Source of the DNA: Treponema sp.
Lineage (GTDB): Bacteria > Spirochaetota > Spirochaetia > Treponematales > Breznakiellaceae
Reading direction: 5' to 3'
NCBI GenBank assembly: GCA_009787775.1
Contig: WQSQ01000016.1
Span: 1-34,329 of the forward strand
DNA length: 34,329 nt
Shown here: positions 26,444-34,329 of the stretch, piece by piece
Layout: each line of letters begins with the position of its first letter
Numbering within the stretch: the stretch's first letter is position 1
Program-made: the position numbers and the translations under genes
The notes under the pieces: generated by a model
The model's input: the letters and a program-made list of their open reading frames with translations, nothing else
Told to the model about the DNA's origin: nothing
The model's database searches: none

Positions 26444-26850
26444 TTACCAAAAAAACTGCAGTCCGTCATCTTTGTATATTTTAACCTGCGTGTCTTTGCT
26501 CATCAGAATATAATCATTATTTATACATTGATATATCAGCATTCTGTCGAAAGGATCTTTATGTTCATTTCTGTATGGCAGCTGCATACTTTTTATCGCA
26601 TCCAGCGGTTCCAGCGGAATCAGGCTGAATTTCATTTCTTCGCAATATTCGGGAATATCAGACGGCATAAAATTTATTTTAAGTTTTCCAATACTGCATT
26701 TTAACGCAATCTCCCATAATGAAACAGCGCTTACCAATATTTCATTATCAGGAATTTTAATGCCTGAATTACATTTTTTGACAGTTCATTTGTTTTTCCA
26801 ATTGCCCATAATAACGTATGAATATCCAGTAAATAATTCAGAGACGGCAT
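26444..26850 (-). pseudogene. PIN-domain toxin gene with a one-base frameshift
   Basis: Read from ATG 26850, the first frame gives YLLDIHTLLWAIGKTNELSK and so the PIN start with Asp10-type acid. It breaks at an AAAA run at 26758-26755; after the shift, IPDNEILVSAVSLWEIALKC continues and the protein runs to 26444 with the usual acidic residues (LWEI, DPFDRML, SKD). Restoring one A would give about 135 residues, normal for this COG3744-like RNase toxin. Its start overlaps the antitoxin stop by 13 bases. The frame is broken, so it is most likely inactive; a sequencing error or a rare slippage event at the A-run is also possible. Confidence 0.75.
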
Positions 26851-27071
26851 AATTCTTCTGCTGTCATTTTGAAATCATTTTTAAATTCAATAATGGCTTT
26901 TCCGTCCAGGATTCCGATTTTACGTTCGGTTTTCTTTTCTTCATTCGGGACGATCATTGCTACAGGTTTTTTTGCTCTACTGAATAAAATCCCAATTTTT
27001 TTTCTGTTTTTTACTTCATCAAGTATTTTTGAAAAATGTGTCTTTATTTCTCCGACCGGCATTGTTTTCAT
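26838..27071 (-). CDS. Phd/YefM-type antitoxin
   Basis: The product is 77 residues and starts with the Phd-like DNA-binding fold: KTMPVGEIKTHFSKILDEV, then KKPVAMIVPNEE. The remaining C-terminal segment (KMTAEELCRL) would bind the toxin. It precedes the PIN-domain toxin gene and overlaps it by 13 bases, a normal toxin-antitoxin arrangement. An ATG three codons further in is an alternative start. No Shine-Dalgarno is evident. Confidence 0.75.
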   Translation of the reverse strand: MKTMPVGEIKTHFSKILDEVKNRKKIGILFSRAKKPVAMIVPNEEKKTERKIGILDGKAIIEFKNDFKMTAEELCRL

Positions 27072-27888: not shown

Positions 27889-29229
27889 ATGAAAAAGAAT
27901 CTTTCTGTATCAGGATTAATTGTACCAGTACTTGTTTTTATTGCGGCTGTTTTTACAGGATGCGCGACAGAAATACCTTTTCAGGTGCAGCGCGCGCCTG
28001 CCTGGAATACGCTGGGGATTCAGCGCCTTGCGGTTTTGCCGTTTACGACATCTGACGGTTCGCAGCTGCAGCGGCAGGCAGCTACATTACTGACAAACGA
28101 ATCGCGCCAAAACATTCAGGCAACAAACCATTTTACGCTTGTCAATGCCGATGAAGTACAGCGGGTACGGGCCAGGGGCGAAAGCGCCGAGAACCTTATT
28201 GATGCCTATTTTACCGGAAATGTTACATCAGTGTCTGTTTCCGACACCAATACGCCGGGTTCATACCGCGACAGAAACGGAAACTTGATTAATTTTATAG
28301 ATTACAGACGCGAAGTAACAATGTCTTTCAATTACGATCTTACATCAACCAGAGGTTCAGAGTTGATAGGATCCGATACTAAAACTGTTTCTACAAGCAG
28401 CATGGCCAGGGACAATCCTGATAATCTGGCAACAACAGAATCGTTAATTCAGAGTTTAGCCCGGCAATATATGAGGCCGGTAGGCAGTTATATGGCGCCT
28501 TATTTTACGACCGAACGCAGAACGCTTCAAAAAGAAACATCAAATGATAAAGCCTTAAAACAACGCGCAAGTGACGCTGAGGCCCTGGCCAAATCCGGGA
28601 ACTATCGGCTGGCACAGGAAGCATTTCTTGGAATTTACAGGGATTCCGGCAGTGTCACCGCTGCGTATAATGCAGCCATGCTTACTGAAATAATGGGAGA
28701 TGCGCAGGGAGCAATAACCTTTTTACAAACTGTATACGCTGCAACAGGCAACCAGTCAATTGCCGGTGAAATTTCCAGGCTGAGGAATTCAATTGCAGAA
28801 GCAGATACATTACAGGCCTTTGCGGATAATCAGAGCCAGCGGGACAGGGTCGTAGCCATGATGGTCGAAACACTTCCTTCCAAATTGCCGGTTAATCCAA
28901 GGGTTGCGCTGATAAACAATTCGCAGAATAATACAGAGCTTGCGGAAACGGTTACAAACGCCATACTGGAAGGTCTTTTAACTAAAAACATAACTGTCGT
29001 TGACCGGAATAACCGGACGCTTATGGAAATGGAGCGTATCTATCAATTTTCCGGTAATGTAAGTGATGAAGATATTATCAGAATCGGGCATGAAGCAGGG
29101 GTTAATACTTTTATTATGGTAGCTGTTACCGGAACAAGCGCTACAAGACGTTTGTCCGTACAGGTGCTTGATGTTGAACGAAGTACGGTTCTCTATCAGT
29201 CGCCGCAGTCCAATGAAATGAACCTGTAA
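27889..29229 (+). CDS. Lipoprotein with two CsgG/LpoB-like domains
   Basis: The 446-residue product has a lipoprotein signal with Cys25 in VFTGC. Residues about 40-190 form a first CsgG/TolB-N-like domain (RLAVLPFTTSDG). Residues about 215-290 are a TPR-like helical linker. Residues about 315-446 form a second such domain (VALINNSQNN, then ITVVDRNNRTLMEMERIYQF and ARRLSVQVLDVE). Proteins of this kind sit on the inner face of the outer membrane as assembly or activator factors (CsgG, LpoB, FlgO). ATG follows AGGAG with an eight-base gap. It opens the plus-strand envelope cluster. Which process it serves is not known. Confidence 0.7.
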   Translation: MKKNLSVSGLIVPVLVFIAAVFTGCATEIPFQVQRAPAWNTLGIQRLAVLPFTTSDGSQLQRQAATLLTNESRQNIQATNHFTLVNADEVQRVRARGESAENLIDAYFTGNVTSVSVSDTNTPGSYRDRNGNLINFIDYRREVTMSFNYDLTSTRGSELIGSDTKTVSTSSMARDNPDNLATTESLIQSLARQYMRPVGSYMAPYFTTERRTLQKETSNDKALKQRASDAEALAKSGNYRLAQEAFLGIYRDSGSVTAAYNAAMLTEIMGDAQGAITFLQTVYAATGNQSIAGEISRLRNSIAEADTLQAFADNQSQRDRVVAMMVETLPSKLPVNPRVALINNSQNNTELAETVTNAILEGLLTKNITVVDRNNRTLMEMERIYQFSGNVSDEDIIRIGHEAGVNTFIMVAVTGTSATRRLSVQVLDVERSTVLYQSPQSNEMNL

Positions 29230-29499
29230 TAAGCCTGGTAAATAAAACCGGATTTATTATTGCAGCTTTGTATAATAAAGCAGCCGCGATGCGGCTGTGA
29301 ATTCGATGAACAACAAAATTACTTTTAATTAAAATTAATTGGTTTATACTGACGGAAATGGAAAAATAAGATATAATTGTTATACGGCGATTTTAAAAAC
29401 CTTTTAGTATTGCCTCTCAGTATGATTTATCCTGGGGATTTATATGCGTTTATCAGACAATTATATTAAGTTTTGTCATGTAGATAAAGGAGCGCCGCA
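29230..29499. promoter_or_regulatory. Gap with hairpin and promoter before the second cluster gene
   Basis: CAGCCGC/GCGGCTG forms a seven-base stem around 29281-29299, without a T-run. A promoter-like pair CTGACG (29349-29354) and TATAAT (29372-29377) at 17-base spacing could drive the genes from 29500 onward. Nothing else is evident. Confidence 0.4.
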
Positions 29500-30663
29500 G
29501 TGACAGGAAAAGTTTTTTCATTTACTGTTGTTTATCTTTTCTTCTCATGCCTGTTATTCATGCCGCTGCTTGCCGCACAAACACCCGAACAGGCAGACGC
29601 TATGGCAAGAGAGGCATTACAGAGACTGGAAGCGGCCCTTGGGGGAAACACTTCAAGCGTATCTGTTTCCTCCGCAAACACTGCCGCGCCTTCTTTGCAG
29701 ATAACGCAGGGCGGCGTTCAGCCTGCGTGGGTAATTGATCCGTACGCAGCCTATGACAGGGGCCGCTATTTTGCCGCTGTCGGATCGGCACCTAACAGAA
29801 GCCAGGCTGAAGCAAGAGCGCTTTCTGCGTTAGTTGCAATTTTCGGCCAGTCAATTCAGTCTGATTTTACAGTTGCCGCCATGTATTCGGAAGCGGTTAA
29901 TAACGGTATTGTTAATGTTTCAGAAAACACGGATATCCGCGACACAATAACAAGAGCGGCTTCCATGGACAACCTTATCGGCGCTCAAATAGGGTACGTG
30001 TGGGATTCAGGGAGAAACGCAGTTTACGCGGCGGCTTATCTTGATAAGGAAAGAGCGGTTTCCATATATACTGATTTGGTAATTTTTAATAAAAACAATA
30101 TAGCTCTCCTTACAAATATGAGCAATGAAGAAAAAAATACTTTTGACGGTTTGGCGCGTTACAGACTTGCTTCGCAGATTGCAAAGATTAACGCCAATTA
30201 TGCTGTTATTATTAACCAGTCGGGCGGTTCCGCCGCGTCATTAAACCTGAATAACGCGGATTATTACATACTCGAGGCGAATAATATATTCCGTAATATT
30301 ACCGTTACTGTAAGCGTTGACAATGACCGCGCCAACCGTGTGCAGAACGCATTTGCAGGCGTGCTAAGCTCCGAAGGGCTGCGCACAAGGGGAAATAACC
30401 CGCCTTATATTCTGGAAGTGTTTGTATTTACAAGCGAAGTAATTTTCCCGTATAACGCTTTTAAATGGTGCCTAATCGAAGTAAGCGCCAACCTGATTGA
30501 TAACTCAACGGGAGCGTCGTTATTTCCTTTTGGTTTTTACCTGAGGGAAGGCCATTCAACTTATGCCAATGCGGAGTCAAGAGCCTATTTAATGGCGGAA
30601 AGGGAGATAAGCCAAAAATTCCCCCTTGTATTGCGTGAATATCTGGAGACAGTGATGCCGTAA
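29500..30663 (+). CDS. LPP20-domain secreted protein
   Basis: The product is 387 residues. A signal peptide ends at LLAAQ (about residue 27), without Cys. An LPP20-type domain follows from about residue 75 (QPAWVIDPYAAYDRGRYFAA, then SQAEARALSALVAIFGQSI). The second half, with YTDLVIFNKNN and a YILEANNI-VTVSV region, looks like a further beta-rich domain of a FlgT-like arrangement. Start GTG 29500 lies seven bases after AAAGGAG. It is adjacent to two more LPP20 proteins. Role unknown; outer-membrane or periplasmic location is inferred. Confidence 0.68.
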   Translation: MTGKVFSFTVVYLFFSCLLFMPLLAAQTPEQADAMAREALQRLEAALGGNTSSVSVSSANTAAPSLQITQGGVQPAWVIDPYAAYDRGRYFAAVGSAPNRSQAEARALSALVAIFGQSIQSDFTVAAMYSEAVNNGIVNVSENTDIRDTITRAASMDNLIGAQIGYVWDSGRNAVYAAAYLDKERAVSIYTDLVIFNKNNIALLTNMSNEEKNTFDGLARYRLASQIAKINANYAVIINQSGGSAASLNLNNADYYILEANNIFRNITVTVSVDNDRANRVQNAFAGVLSSEGLRTRGNNPPYILEVFVFTSEVIFPYNAFKWCLIEVSANLIDNSTGASLFPFGFYLREGHSTYANAESRAYLMAEREISQKFPLVLREYLETVMP

Positions 30664-30743
30664 TTTTACAGGTATTGTATAAATTCCATTATGTGAATAA
30701 GTTTCTTATGAAACTTTTTATATTTTTTAAAGGAGAGTTAAAA

Positions 30744-31331
30744 ATGAAAAAACTCTGTCTGTTGGTTGCTGCCATGGCTGTCATGGCGCTTGTTATGGGA
30801 TGCAGCTCATCCCCTGCTTCCACCTCCGCTCCTGCGACTCCGCAGGCGGCCACGGTTACCCCGTCCAGTACTCCTGCGTGGTTCAGCGATGTACCGCCTG
30901 AGGATGTTGTTTACGGCATTGGAATCGCCAAAATGGCAAACGACGCTATGGCCTTGGAGACCGCTACAACCCGTTCACAGCGCGACATTTCCAGGCAGGT
31001 AAGCGCAGTTGTTCAAGGTATGGTTATTGACTATATGAACCAATCAGGTGCTGCCAATAACCCAAGAGTAATTGAGTCAGTGGATATTATCGGCCGCAAC
31101 CTTACCAACTTAAACCTTACAGGCTCAGTTGTGGACAAACGGGATAAAATGGCTGACGGAACATGGTATGTGCGCACATATACAAGAAAAGCTGACATTT
31201 TAAGGCAGACTGAATCTGTCGTGAATAATGAAATGGCCGACTATGCTGAATGGAGGAGAGAACAGGCTCTCGCTCAGCTTGATCATGCTCTTAGCAGCGC
31301 AAATTTTAAAACACAAGGGCTGGCAGATTAA
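30744..31331 (+). CDS. LPP20-domain lipoprotein
   Basis: The 195-residue product has the lipobox LVMGC with Cys20 and a Ser/Pro/Thr/Ala-rich linker. The LPP20 core follows: PAWFSDVPPEDVVYGIG, ATTRSQRDISRQV and a C-terminal RQTESVVNNEMADY helix. In Vibrio the LPP20 lipoprotein FlgP is part of the flagellar outer-membrane ring, and in Helicobacter Lpp20 is surface-associated. ATG 30744 has AAAGGAG upstream; an upstream in-frame start is not convincing. The gene is flanked by the other LPP20 genes with short gaps. Confidence 0.78.
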   Translation: MKKLCLLVAAMAVMALVMGCSSSPASTSAPATPQAATVTPSSTPAWFSDVPPEDVVYGIGIAKMANDAMALETATTRSQRDISRQVSAVVQGMVIDYMNQSGAANNPRVIESVDIIGRNLTNLNLTGSVVDKRDKMADGTWYVRTYTRKADILRQTESVVNNEMADYAEWRREQALAQLDHALSSANFKTQGLAD

Positions 31332-31339
31332 TATTTATT

Positions 31340-32161
31340 ATGCATAACAAAAAATGTTCTGCATTCTTATTTTCCCTTGTCTTTGCTGTTGTCCTGTTTA
31401 CAGTTTCGTGTTACTCCGCAGGAAACGGGAAACAGCAAAGTTCACGGGATAATCCGTCTGTTACAGACAAACCAACTGATTATTCGCAGCTGGCTTTGCA
31501 TAACAATCTTGTAATCATCGGAGCCGCGCCCCGTTATTTAAACCGTGATGATTCAGTTAAGGCTGCTTTAAACGACGCTGCAAGAAAACTTTCATTTTTT
31601 TATTCTGTAAGCGGCAGCTCTGAAAGTCTTCAGCGCATAGGCAGCACTTCTCTGGATGTTGAATTTGGTTCTTCTTACCAGCTGCAATTTGACAGTAATC
31701 TTGATAACTATCTTGAAATGCTTGAATATGACGTAAAAAATGATGTATTCGAGAGCAATAACGCGGTATTTATTACAACAAGAGTTACATCTGATATTCT
31801 AATGCCCGCGTTCCGCGGAAATTCAGCTTCCGGTACGCGTCCCGGCTGGATAGATTCGCCTCCTTCGCATATCAGCGGGTTTATCACAGGCGTGGGTCTT
31901 TCCGGGCGGCTTGTTTCCCACTGCGATACTGTTGTCAGATCATATGAAAAAGCCGTTATCGCGATTATCGAAAGCATCAGCGTATCTATTCATAACGAAC
32001 ACATGCTTAATCAGGACAACAGCGTCTTTGGCTTTGAAGCGCAGTCATCGGGCGGTTCAAGAGCGTCCGGCATATTGGAAAACTTCTATGTAATTGAAAC
32101 ATGGACGGATCCTTCCAGTTTATCAGTCTGGACTCTTGCAGTTGCGAGAGAAAAGTTTTGA
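31340..32161 (+). CDS. LPP20-like lipoprotein
   Basis: The product is 273 residues with the lipobox FTVSC (Cys24). It then has two stretches resembling the LPP20 fold: LVIIGAAPRYLNRDDSVKAA at about 55-75 and RPGWIDSPPSHISGFITGVG at about 167-186. No Shine-Dalgarno is visible; the stop of the gene before ends eight bases upstream, so it may depend on reinitiation. Its TGA overlaps the TTG start of the M48 protease (TTGA). Function unknown. Confidence 0.65.
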   Translation: MHNKKCSAFLFSLVFAVVLFTVSCYSAGNGKQQSSRDNPSVTDKPTDYSQLALHNNLVIIGAAPRYLNRDDSVKAALNDAARKLSFFYSVSGSSESLQRIGSTSLDVEFGSSYQLQFDSNLDNYLEMLEYDVKNDVFESNNAVFITTRVTSDILMPAFRGNSASGTRPGWIDSPPSHISGFITGVGLSGRLVSHCDTVVRSYEKAVIAIIESISVSIHNEHMLNQDNSVFGFEAQSSGGSRASGILENFYVIETWTDPSSLSVWTLAVAREKF

Positions 32162-33009
32162 AAAATAAATCTGCATTATCACTTTTACTTTTTATTGCCG
32201 CAGGCGTTTTATCAGCGCAGAGTATTGATTTTTCGGGCGCGTTATCCCGAATGGAGAGCGCGATAGACAGTTCGCAGGAAGAGTTTTCATTACAGGACAG
32301 TTATTATCTTGGACGCTCTGCTGCCGCTCACATTCTGGGAAGTTACCGTGTTTATACCGAAAAACCTGAAATAACAAATTACCTGAATCTGATTTGCATG
32401 GCCCTGGCGGTTAACTCACCATCGCCCAACTGGTATAACGGTTATCATGTGATAATTCTGGACGATCCTGCTCTTACCGCTTATTCTACATCCGGCGGTC
32501 ATATATTTATAAGCCGCGGCCTTATTGAGTTAACCTCCAGCGAAGATATGCTCGCGGCGGTTATTGCCCATGAACTTGCTCATATTCAATTAAAGCATGG
32601 TACTGCGCAGATTAAAAATGATCGCCTGATGCAGCAGTTTGCGCAGGAGCGTTTCAGAATTTCACAAAGCCCTGCGTCCAATACAGGGCAGTTGTTCTCG
32701 GATACAGTTAACGAAATTGTTCAAACCCTTCTAAGCGGAGGTTATTCCCAGCTTCAGGAATTTGAAGCTGATTCAGCGGCTGTTTCTTTGCTTGAATCGG
32801 CAGGTTATAACCCGGGAAGCCTTCTTGAGTTATTAGGAGTATTGGAAAGACTTCAGGGATACCAGTGGGCAAGCTTAAATAAAAGCCACCCTTTATCCTT
32901 CCAGAGAATTGATAATTTACGAAGACAGATGATTGCAGCAAGATATAGATCTCCGGATAACAGCGCCGCAAGAAGGGCCAGATTCAACCGGATAATGGAG
33001 CGCGATTAA
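32158..33009 (+). CDS. Secreted M48-family metalloprotease (BepA/Oma1-like)
   Basis: The 283-residue zinc protease has a signal peptide ending near LSAQS. HELAH at residues 138-142 supplies two His ligands and the catalytic Glu. EFEADSAA at about 201-208 supplies the third ligand. SGGHIFISRGLIELTSSEDM is the classic upstream strand. Such periplasmic proteases degrade or mature outer-membrane assembly intermediates. I take TTG 32158, which overlaps the preceding stop as TTGA; an upstream ATG at 32101 would lie within the preceding gene and lack a signal peptide at the start. The duplicate at 27.2 kb has lost one ligand. Confidence 0.88.
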   Translation: MKNKSALSLLLFIAAGVLSAQSIDFSGALSRMESAIDSSQEEFSLQDSYYLGRSAAAHILGSYRVYTEKPEITNYLNLICMALAVNSPSPNWYNGYHVIILDDPALTAYSTSGGHIFISRGLIELTSSEDMLAAVIAHELAHIQLKHGTAQIKNDRLMQQFAQERFRISQSPASNTGQLFSDTVNEIVQTLLSGGYSQLQEFEADSAAVSLLESAGYNPGSLLELLGVLERLQGYQWASLNKSHPLSFQRIDNLRRQMIAARYRSPDNSAARRARFNRIMERD

Positions 33010-33069
33010 CAGAGCGGCTTTTTAGCGGACTTATATATGGACTCTAATAATGTTTTTGGGAGGACCAGT

Positions 33070-33924
33070 ATGAATAAAAAACTCTTTACTGCTTATTTAA
33101 TTTTTATTTTTATGGCTGTATCTTCTGTTTACAGCCAGACAGTCAGCATTGATAACGCTGTTTCTGATTGTGTACATTATCTGCAAAACCGTTATCCAAA
33201 CGGCACAAGAGCGGCGTTAATTTTTATTCAAAGCGAAAACGCGGAACTTGGGGAGTTAGTTCTAAATAAGATGAGCGCCGCTCTTGTAAACAACAACTGG
33301 TTCAGAGTTGTTGAGCGCAATGCCGCCGTTCTTGAGCAAATTGATCAGGAGTTATACCGCAATCGGAGCTTAATTATAAGCCGGGATACCGCGCTTTCTT
33401 TAGGAAGACAGTTAGGCGCACAGATTATTATTTCCGGCTCTTTTACCAGAAACGGGCAGAATTGGATGTTAGATATACAGGCGGTAAACGCGGAAAGCGC
33501 GGAGCGCACCGCCCATCATATATCCGAAAATATACAATCAGATTCTTCATGGAGTTTCCTCGCGGCACACAGAAGCGCGGGCCTTTTCTTTACAGATTAC
33601 GCCTTTGCGCCCCGTGAAACGCAGACAATAACCTCCGCTTTCCGTCAGGCGCTGCAAACCTTTAATACCGGCCTTGCGCTTAACGAAAACGCTGCACAGG
33701 GCGCGGGTTTATGTTTTAATATCGATATTTTTCTTATGAATACCCCTTCCGGCCTTTTGCAGGCGGAAGTTTCAATATCCCTTTTACAGGACAGCAGGAT
33801 TCTGCTCGAAAGCAAACAATATATAATACGCGAATTAACCGAGACAATGACAGCCCGCCGCATAAGCGAGGAAATAAGGGACGACAGGGAATTTTTCGCA
33901 AGAGTTAATAGTTTAATCAGGTAG
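33070..33924 (+). CDS. Secreted CsgG/LpoB/FlgO-like protein
   Basis: The 284-residue product has a signal peptide ending at VYSQ (about residue 23), without Cys. A CsgG/LpoB-type domain follows: TRAALIFIQSENAELGELVL, FRVVERNAAVLEQIDQEL and LGAQIIISGSFTRNGQNW. The second half contains a further beta-rich repeat. ATG 33070 has GGGAGG six bases upstream; ATG 33037 is a weaker start. It follows the protease and precedes a gene of similar size class. LpoB-like proteins activate PBPs; FlgO-like proteins assist flagellar outer-membrane rings. Which applies is unknown. Confidence 0.7.
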   Translation: MNKKLFTAYLIFIFMAVSSVYSQTVSIDNAVSDCVHYLQNRYPNGTRAALIFIQSENAELGELVLNKMSAALVNNNWFRVVERNAAVLEQIDQELYRNRSLIISRDTALSLGRQLGAQIIISGSFTRNGQNWMLDIQAVNAESAERTAHHISENIQSDSSWSFLAAHRSAGLFFTDYAFAPRETQTITSAFRQALQTFNTGLALNENAAQGAGLCFNIDIFLMNTPSGLLQAEVSISLLQDSRILLESKQYIIRELTETMTARRISEEIRDDREFFARVNSLIR

Positions 33925-33935
33925 GAGGAGTAAAA

Positions 33936-34329
33936 ATGAAAAAAGTAATAATATTTATATTCCTTATTCTCACGATCGTATTTATTTTACCGGCAGACTT
34001 ATTCGCGCAGAAGGAAAGCATGCTGGTTATTTTTCCTTTTGCCGGAAGCAGCATTGAGAACGGTAATTTAATCGCATCAAAGTTTTCATATCAGGATTTT
34101 ATTTCAAGTATGTTTTTAGTGGCGCGGATTAGGATCGATACCTCGTTTTTCTTCCACAGAGACGGCAGTAACGATATTGAAGTAATGCTGACAATGGGAA
34201 AACAATTTGGCGCATCGTATATTTTAATAGGCAGCATTTCACTCTCTGACGGACAAAATTCTGTGTTGTTAGAATTTTTTAATGCTGAAAGCAGACTGAA
34301 AATTGCACAGGAACTCATTGTTTTTGAAT
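33936..34329 (+). CDS. Partial CsgG/LpoB-like secreted protein, cut by the window edge
   Basis: The frame is open from ATG 33936, after GGAGGAG (33924-33930), to the end of the window (131 residues, no stop). A signal peptide ends near LFAQ (residue 25). LVIFPFAGSSIENGN, MGKQFGASYILIGSISL and LEFFNAESRLKIAQELIV match the pattern of the CsgG/LpoB-type proteins of this cluster. It overlaps nothing and continues the plus-strand cluster beyond the window. Confidence 0.6.
   Translation, partial: MKKVIIFIFLILTIVFILPADLFAQKESMLVIFPFAGSSIENGNLIASKFSYQDFISSMFLVARIRIDTSFFFHRDGSNDIEVMLTMGKQFGASYILIGSISLSDGQNSVLLEFFNAESRLKIAQELIVFE

Follow-up and report, generated by a model that had tools for sequence, protein, structure and literature searches.

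Gene organization of the locus

We analyzed seven adjacent plus-strand genes, here called P1 to P7, at the end of a 34,329-nucleotide stretch of Treponema sp. DNA (contig WQSQ01000016.1 of assembly GCA_009787775.1). This whole stretch, referred to as the window, makes up contig C16 in full, and P7 is therefore incomplete. The source genome has 2.04 Mb and is 71% complete. An earlier note on this DNA, made from the letters alone, had described the genes as an envelope cluster of exported, partly lipidated proteins with assembly-factor-like folds, including a protease whose gene overlaps that of the preceding LPP20 protein. The seven open reading frames were confirmed at the coordinates given in that note, and the locus contains the following features.

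27889-29229, plus strand: P1, 446-aa lipoprotein with lipobox Cys25 and a C-terminal CsgG/LpoB-type domain (about residues 320-438)
29230-29499: P1-P2 gap of 270 bp, with a hairpin (29281-29297) and a promoter-like site (29349-29377, 10/12 matches)
29500-30663, plus strand: P2, 387-aa exported protein with an LPP20 domain (75-182) and a CsgG/TolB/PelC-type domain (about 262-386)
30744-31331, plus strand: P3, 195-aa Lpp20-like lipoprotein with lipobox Cys20
31340-32161, plus strand: P4, 273-aa lipoprotein with lipobox Cys24 and two tandem SHS2/LPP20-like domains
32158-33009, plus strand: P5, exported M48 metalloprotease with a TTG start
33070-33924, plus strand: P6, exported LpoB/CsgG-type protein
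33936-34329, plus strand: P7, exported CsgG/LpoB-type protein, cut by the contig end
27204-27544, plus strand: decayed partial copy of an M48 gene, upstream of P1

The starts of P3 (ATG, 30744), the M48 gene (TTG, 32158), and P6 (ATG, 33070) were corrected according to signal peptide and Shine-Dalgarno sequence. The P4 stop codon and the M48 start codon overlap in TTGA (32158-32161), as had been proposed, and the intergenic gaps are about 80 bp between P2 and P3, about 60 bp between P5 and P6, and about 11 bp between P6 and P7. P2 to P7 look like one transcription unit. P1 may form a separate unit, because the gap behind it holds the hairpin and the promoter-like site; both elements come from a consensus scan only, in which the promoter-like count was modestly above that of shuffled sequences. 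Ordinary signal peptides, judged by eye, are present in P2, P5, P6, and P7, and P1, P3, and P4 carry lipoboxes, whose cysteine is near-invariant in the P3 and P4 family alignments. A regular-expression tally of lipoboxes was too loose and was not used.

LPP20- and SHS2-type proteins

First, the three LPP20-type proteins were examined. P2 scored 28.8 bits against the Pfam family LPP20 (PF02169), above the gathering cut-off of 25.9 bits, and all 24 of its orthologues matched this family at E<0.1. Searches of the PDB with sequence profiles of P2 and P4 gave no usable match, and Helicobacter pylori HP1454 (4kzs) was not found by sequence profile (A4) at E<1. The AlphaFold model of P2 (pLDDT 78) aligned with both domains of HP1454 (Z 10.6 over 228 residues, aligned 87-386, rmsd 4.5), and Foldseek gave the same relative at E 1.9e-6. 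P2 has the architecture of HP1454, in which an LPP20-like domain is followed by a CsgG/TolB-type domain in one secreted chain. In fold only, the model also resembled Vibrio FlgT (3w1e; Z 9.9 over 175 residues) and the FlgT-sized chain of the LPHT ring (8z5n; Z 9.8). The N-terminal domain was close to Lpp20 (Z 8.5), and the C-terminal domain was near CsgG (Z 11.0) and PelC (Z 10.5, 21% identity), with LptE, TolB, TraT, and FlgT also among its fold matches. A second P2 copy, 70% identical, lies at the end of another contig of the source genome (C13; L055, 7250-9116). Immediately after it comes a P6-like gene that is interrupted where the contig stops, and P3, P4, and M48 are absent there.

P3 from the window gave no Pfam match by itself, but its family profile matched H. 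pylori Lpp20 (5ok8) at E=2.6e-5, and 15 of 21 P3 orthologues matched LPP20 at E<0.1. The spirochete set is like the H. pylori HP1454/HP1456 (Lpp20) pair in that a secreted HP1454-type protein and an Lpp20 lipoprotein are encoded in one operon in both sets (PMC11756786). It is unlike that pair in its additional tandem-SHS2 lipoprotein, LpoB/CsgG-type proteins, and M48 protease, and in belonging to bacteria whose flagella are periplasmic; the profile search at E<1 gave no sequence match to HP1454.

P4 from the window matched no Pfam family by itself, and the LPP20 gathering cut-off was not reached, while 9 of 16 P4 relatives matched LPP20 at E<0.1. Its AlphaFold model (pLDDT 81) showed two tandem beta-alpha-beta, SHS2-like domains. 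The best two rows for the P4 halves were FlgT residues 1-86 (Z 7.1) and Tip-alpha (Z 7.2), and the next had Z 5.2. In both halves, judged from secondary structure only, additional strands stand after the helix. In Campylobacter FlgP the ring-forming hairpin follows the helix, and FlgQ is described as similar to a repeat of two FlgP units (PMC12222027). P4 is similar to the components of this basal disk as a double-SHS2 lipoprotein with such strands, but no sequence match between them and P4 was found, and P4 has no flagellar context.

The count of three LPP20-type proteins thus stood, with P2 over the cut-off, P3 identified by its family profile and orthologues, and P4 by its fold and relatives. 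The structure check proposed in the earlier note gave assembly-factor-like folds for the P2 and P4 models; both models resembled FlgT, and that of P2 also HP1454 and Lpp20.

CsgG- and LpoB-type proteins

P6 was above the Pfam cut-offs for both LpoB (27.9 against 22.3 bits) and CsgG (23.2 against 20.8 bits), the latter match covering only positions 34-100 of 210, and CsgG/LpoB-type matches, from Pfam CsgG, were obtained in 13 of 14 P6 relatives. However, P6 was far from the NCBIfam LpoB equivalog cut-off (22.8 against 110.55 bits). By hhalign, the C-terminal domain of P1 matched the P6 family with 97.5% probability and P7 did so with 79% over 91 columns, which upheld the count of three CsgG/LpoB-type proteins. 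The P6 family had no convincing link with P2 by the same method (18%). Whole-protein profiles of P1 and P7 drifted onto P2 on iteration, and no evidence was drawn from them. Membership in the FlgO family, which the earlier note had suggested, was not borne out, as P6 scored 17.0 bits against the FlgO Pfam cut-off of 22.6 bits (PF17680).

Among 11 genomes of the genus tested, 10 encoded a single strong LpoB (about 205 aa); many weaker LpoB/CsgG-type genes were present in some. A P1 orthologue, 34% identical, lies directly downstream of the M48 gene in L075/L036. The weak LpoB/CsgG-type expansion is large in one 2.4 Mb genome (G035, 16 matches in all), and likewise in other genomes of the genus. 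The CsgG/LpoB-type proteins of the genus also carry varied C-terminal additions (for example L076, 10586-13200, and L083, 9919-10965), among which Lcl_C matched three family members and the Listeria-Bacteroides repeat one.

Conservation of the gene neighbourhood

A genome collection was scanned with P2, which gave 25 loci, all from spirochaetes by title. The relatives were Treponema and other spirochaete genomes, mostly metagenome bins, whose isolate codes we read as those of termite-gut samples. Within 3.5 kb of P2, a P3 gene was present in 21 loci, P4 in 15, a CsgG/LpoB-type gene in 17, and M48 in 7. Since P3 was this close in 21 of 25 loci of a scan that used P2 alone, the P2-P3 linkage is evidently not due to chance.

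In a survey of 294 genomes of the order, P2 was found in 191, in families f1 and f3. The source genome falls by kinship in f1, which also holds closed genomes of 4,059,867 and 3,855,671 bp (L120, L121); we take these to be Treponema primitia ZAS-2 and Leadbettera (Treponema) azotonutricia ZAS-9. The ZAS-2 and ZAS-9 organisms have been placed in Breznakiellaceae (PMC13067680). Weaker relatives of P2 were found in a few other families of the phylum; those outside the order belong mostly to one family (f22; G341, G417, and others), and G444 and G502 also have one.

Across the neighbourhoods of 20 further genomes, an LpoB gene, a gene for a lipoprotein of about 440 aa, and then P2 were seen in this arrangement. 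The lipoprotein had no Pfam or NCBIfam match over cut-off and is called TPR440, a name of convenience for a TPR-type lipoprotein. We take the LpoB-TPR440-P2 arrangement to be the older one, because it is present in both of the two Treponematales families (L121, L122, L126, L131, L138, L139). P3-P4 precede LpoB-TPR440-P2 in L121 and L138, TPR440-P2 in L136, and P2 alone in L120. The termite genus also has P2-P3-(P4)-M48 with divergent CsgG/LpoB-type genes. From these gene orders, the seven-gene set appears to be a local rearranged form of an operon conserved in Treponematales (P3-P4-LpoB-TPR440-P2, often without P3-P4). The expectation of a conserved order therefore held for the neighbourhood but not for the seven-gene order itself, in which P4, P1, P6, and P7 are variably present. 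The older operon differs from the seven-gene set in having a canonical LpoB and a TPR-type lipoprotein and in lacking M48. No description of the operon was found in titles and abstracts on LPP20 or LpoB in Treponema, or on COG3014 with LpoB.

The M48 protease and its association with the operon

The identity of P5 as an M48 protease was clear from its match to Pfam Peptidase M48 (94.1 against 20.3 bits) and from an intact active site, with HELAH and EFEAD (E-x-EAD). The solved proteins nearest to it were 3c37 and BepA. P5 is exported, as are the Escherichia coli M48 proteases BepA and LoiP, but it has neither a TPR domain nor a lipobox, is operon-linked to LPP20 genes, and scored far below the NCBIfam cut-offs for BepA (59.1 against 570 bits) and LoiP (53.1 against 365 bits). 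The known M48 proteases of E. coli have a quality-control function in the biogenesis of envelope proteins (PMC7950410).

In a maximum-likelihood tree built from 41 M48 proteins, all operon-linked ones grouped in one clade of 16 (support 98/90), in which the window protein belongs to a six-member subclade (100/100). Fourteen of the 16 clade members lie at most 3 kb from an operon gene, whereas none of the 25 other M48 genes does (Fisher p=3e-9, a value that is indicative only, given the non-independence of related sequences). Two of the 14, L140 and L141, had been fetched because their coordinates hinted at linkage, and excluding both left 12 of 14. In eight loci the M48 gene shares its strand with P2 or P3; in the others it stands beside LpoB, TPR440, or P3 genes. 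Of all the findings, this linkage of clade and operon speaks most strongly for the protease being part of the module, as had been supposed from the overlap with P4.

The decayed M48 copy upstream of P1 is identical to the M48 gene in 304 of 344 DNA columns (88%), has frameshifts, and carries HELAN in place of HELAH. Further upstream, on the minus strand at 26444-27071, lies a remnant-looking toxin-antitoxin pair, in which an antitoxin resembling Phd/YefM (score below cut-off) is followed by fragments of a PIN domain that occupy two reading frames.

Possible function of the gene set

The reading that we favour, at somewhat less than an even chance, is an SHS2/LpoB assembly in the periplasm that is tethered to the outer membrane and has an M48 protease of its own. 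In such an assembly, the SHS2-domain lipoproteins P3 and P4 would be located at the inner surface of the outer membrane, and P2, a soluble two-domain protein folded like HP1454 and the first two domains of FlgT, would dock on them. The LpoB/CsgG-type proteins P1, P6, and P7 would reach towards peptidoglycan or other envelope partners, and the M48 protease of the operon would clear or trim mis-assembled subunits. Its role would be one of organizing the envelope rather than a flagellar one. We stop short of a stronger statement because location, assembly, and proteolysis are all inferred. Several observations weigh on the other side. The operon outside the termite genus is without M48, so that the protease does not belong to the core, and several loci with M48 (L035, L036, L038) have no P4. 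The fold matches of P4 are modest (Z about 7) and came from a second structural aligner, Foldseek alone giving nothing significant for this protein, and the CsgG/TolB-type fold predicted for P2 is a generic one that is widespread in envelope proteins.

An unlikely alternative is control of peptidoglycan synthesis, in which LpoB-type proteins, acting from the outer membrane, would activate class A penicillin-binding proteins (PBPs) in a complex organized by P2 and the LPP20 proteins. In the older operon, TPR440 and P2 are immediately preceded by a strong LpoB (115-121 bits against 22.3), and class A PBPs were present in 16 of 16 genomes. P6 and this strong LpoB share their domain type with E. 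coli LpoB. However, the UB2H docking domain gave no match over cut-off in 16 genomes, and the strong LpoB remained below the NCBIfam equivalog cut-off (84-94 against 110.55). In the source genome the strong LpoB is on a different contig, and the window itself offers the weakly LpoB-like P6. Activation of the classical LpoB-PBP1B kind was therefore set aside, as UB2H was not found, and peptidoglycan control was kept as a rival; a direct role on PBPs is possible, but not by the docking route of E. coli.

It is improbable that the genes encode a loose assortment of rapidly changing secreted proteins that have promoters or location in common without forming one machine. P1, P6, and P7 are members of a greatly expanded family, with up to 16 LpoB-type matches per genome, and vary between loci, as this explanation would have it. 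However, P2, P3, and P4 are found linked in several genera and families and in two distinct gene orders, and the operon is accompanied by one clade of M48 proteases.

The Vibrio FlgO-FlgP-FlgT set, to which the cluster had been compared, forms the H-ring. The two have in common SHS2 and CsgG/TolB-type domains in lipoproteins and a soluble FlgT-like protein, and the H. pylori proteins HP1454 and Lpp20, whose genes stand in one operon, bind FlgP and FapH (PMC11756786). FliF was found in 262 of the 294 genomes of the order and in nearly all genomes with P2; P2-positive genomes without FliF (for example G137 and G301) were not used, as they may reflect assembly gaps. In contrast to these points, FlgH was found in none of 25 genomes and FlgI in none of 24, with positive controls, so that these genomes lack the L and P rings, and the FlgO and FlgT_M Pfam cut-offs were not reached. 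The presence of P2 also does not follow that of flagella. A flagellated genome of T. pallidum size (G046) had no P2 match, those of T. denticola size had none or a trace (E=2.7e-4), and in flagellated genomes of families f2, f4, and f5 P2 was lacking or a trace match. No flagellar genes were recognized among the neighbours read. In Vibrio, penetration of the outer membrane requires the H-ring, and loss of flgT gives mostly periplasmic flagella, while the motor scaffolds of spirochetes are inner-membrane collars (PMC7990780); penetration is foreign to periplasmic flagella. For these reasons a flagellar ring is unlikely, which agrees with the doubt in the earlier note, and it was rejected as the main explanation. 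An accessory ring or collar of the periplasmic flagellar motor, related to the H-ring, is quite improbable; a looser accessory role is conceivable. Deletion of Lpp20 in H. pylori leaves flagella normal (PMC11756786), in keeping with a broader role in the envelope.

An export channel, a ring like that of CsgG or PelC through which a protein fibre or a polysaccharide would cross the outer membrane, is highly improbable: the P2 C-terminal fold and the CsgG matches of P6 and its relatives point that way, but the fold is generic, since LptE, TolB, TraT, and FlgT share it, the P6 match is confined to part of CsgG, and no export substrate or synthase was recognized among the neighbours read.

A more far-reaching reading, which we regard as rather unlikely, is a non-flagellar outer-membrane disc or ring of SHS2 lipoproteins in Treponematales. 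P4 would be its FlgQ-like double unit and P2 its HP1454/FlgT-like connector, and the M48 protease would control its assembly in the termite-gut species. If this were true, the disc or ring would be a free-standing relative of the flagellar outer-membrane rings.

Flagellar outer-membrane rings contain SHS2 domains, in FlgP and FlgT, and the non-flagellar relatives of these domains are poorly understood. The association of one M48 subfamily with defined partners offers testable substrates for a type of protease whose targets are mostly unknown. As the operon occurs in bacteria that keep their flagella inside the outer membrane, it is a place to learn what SHS2 proteins do without an external flagellum, and it suggests where flagellar outer-membrane rings may have come from.

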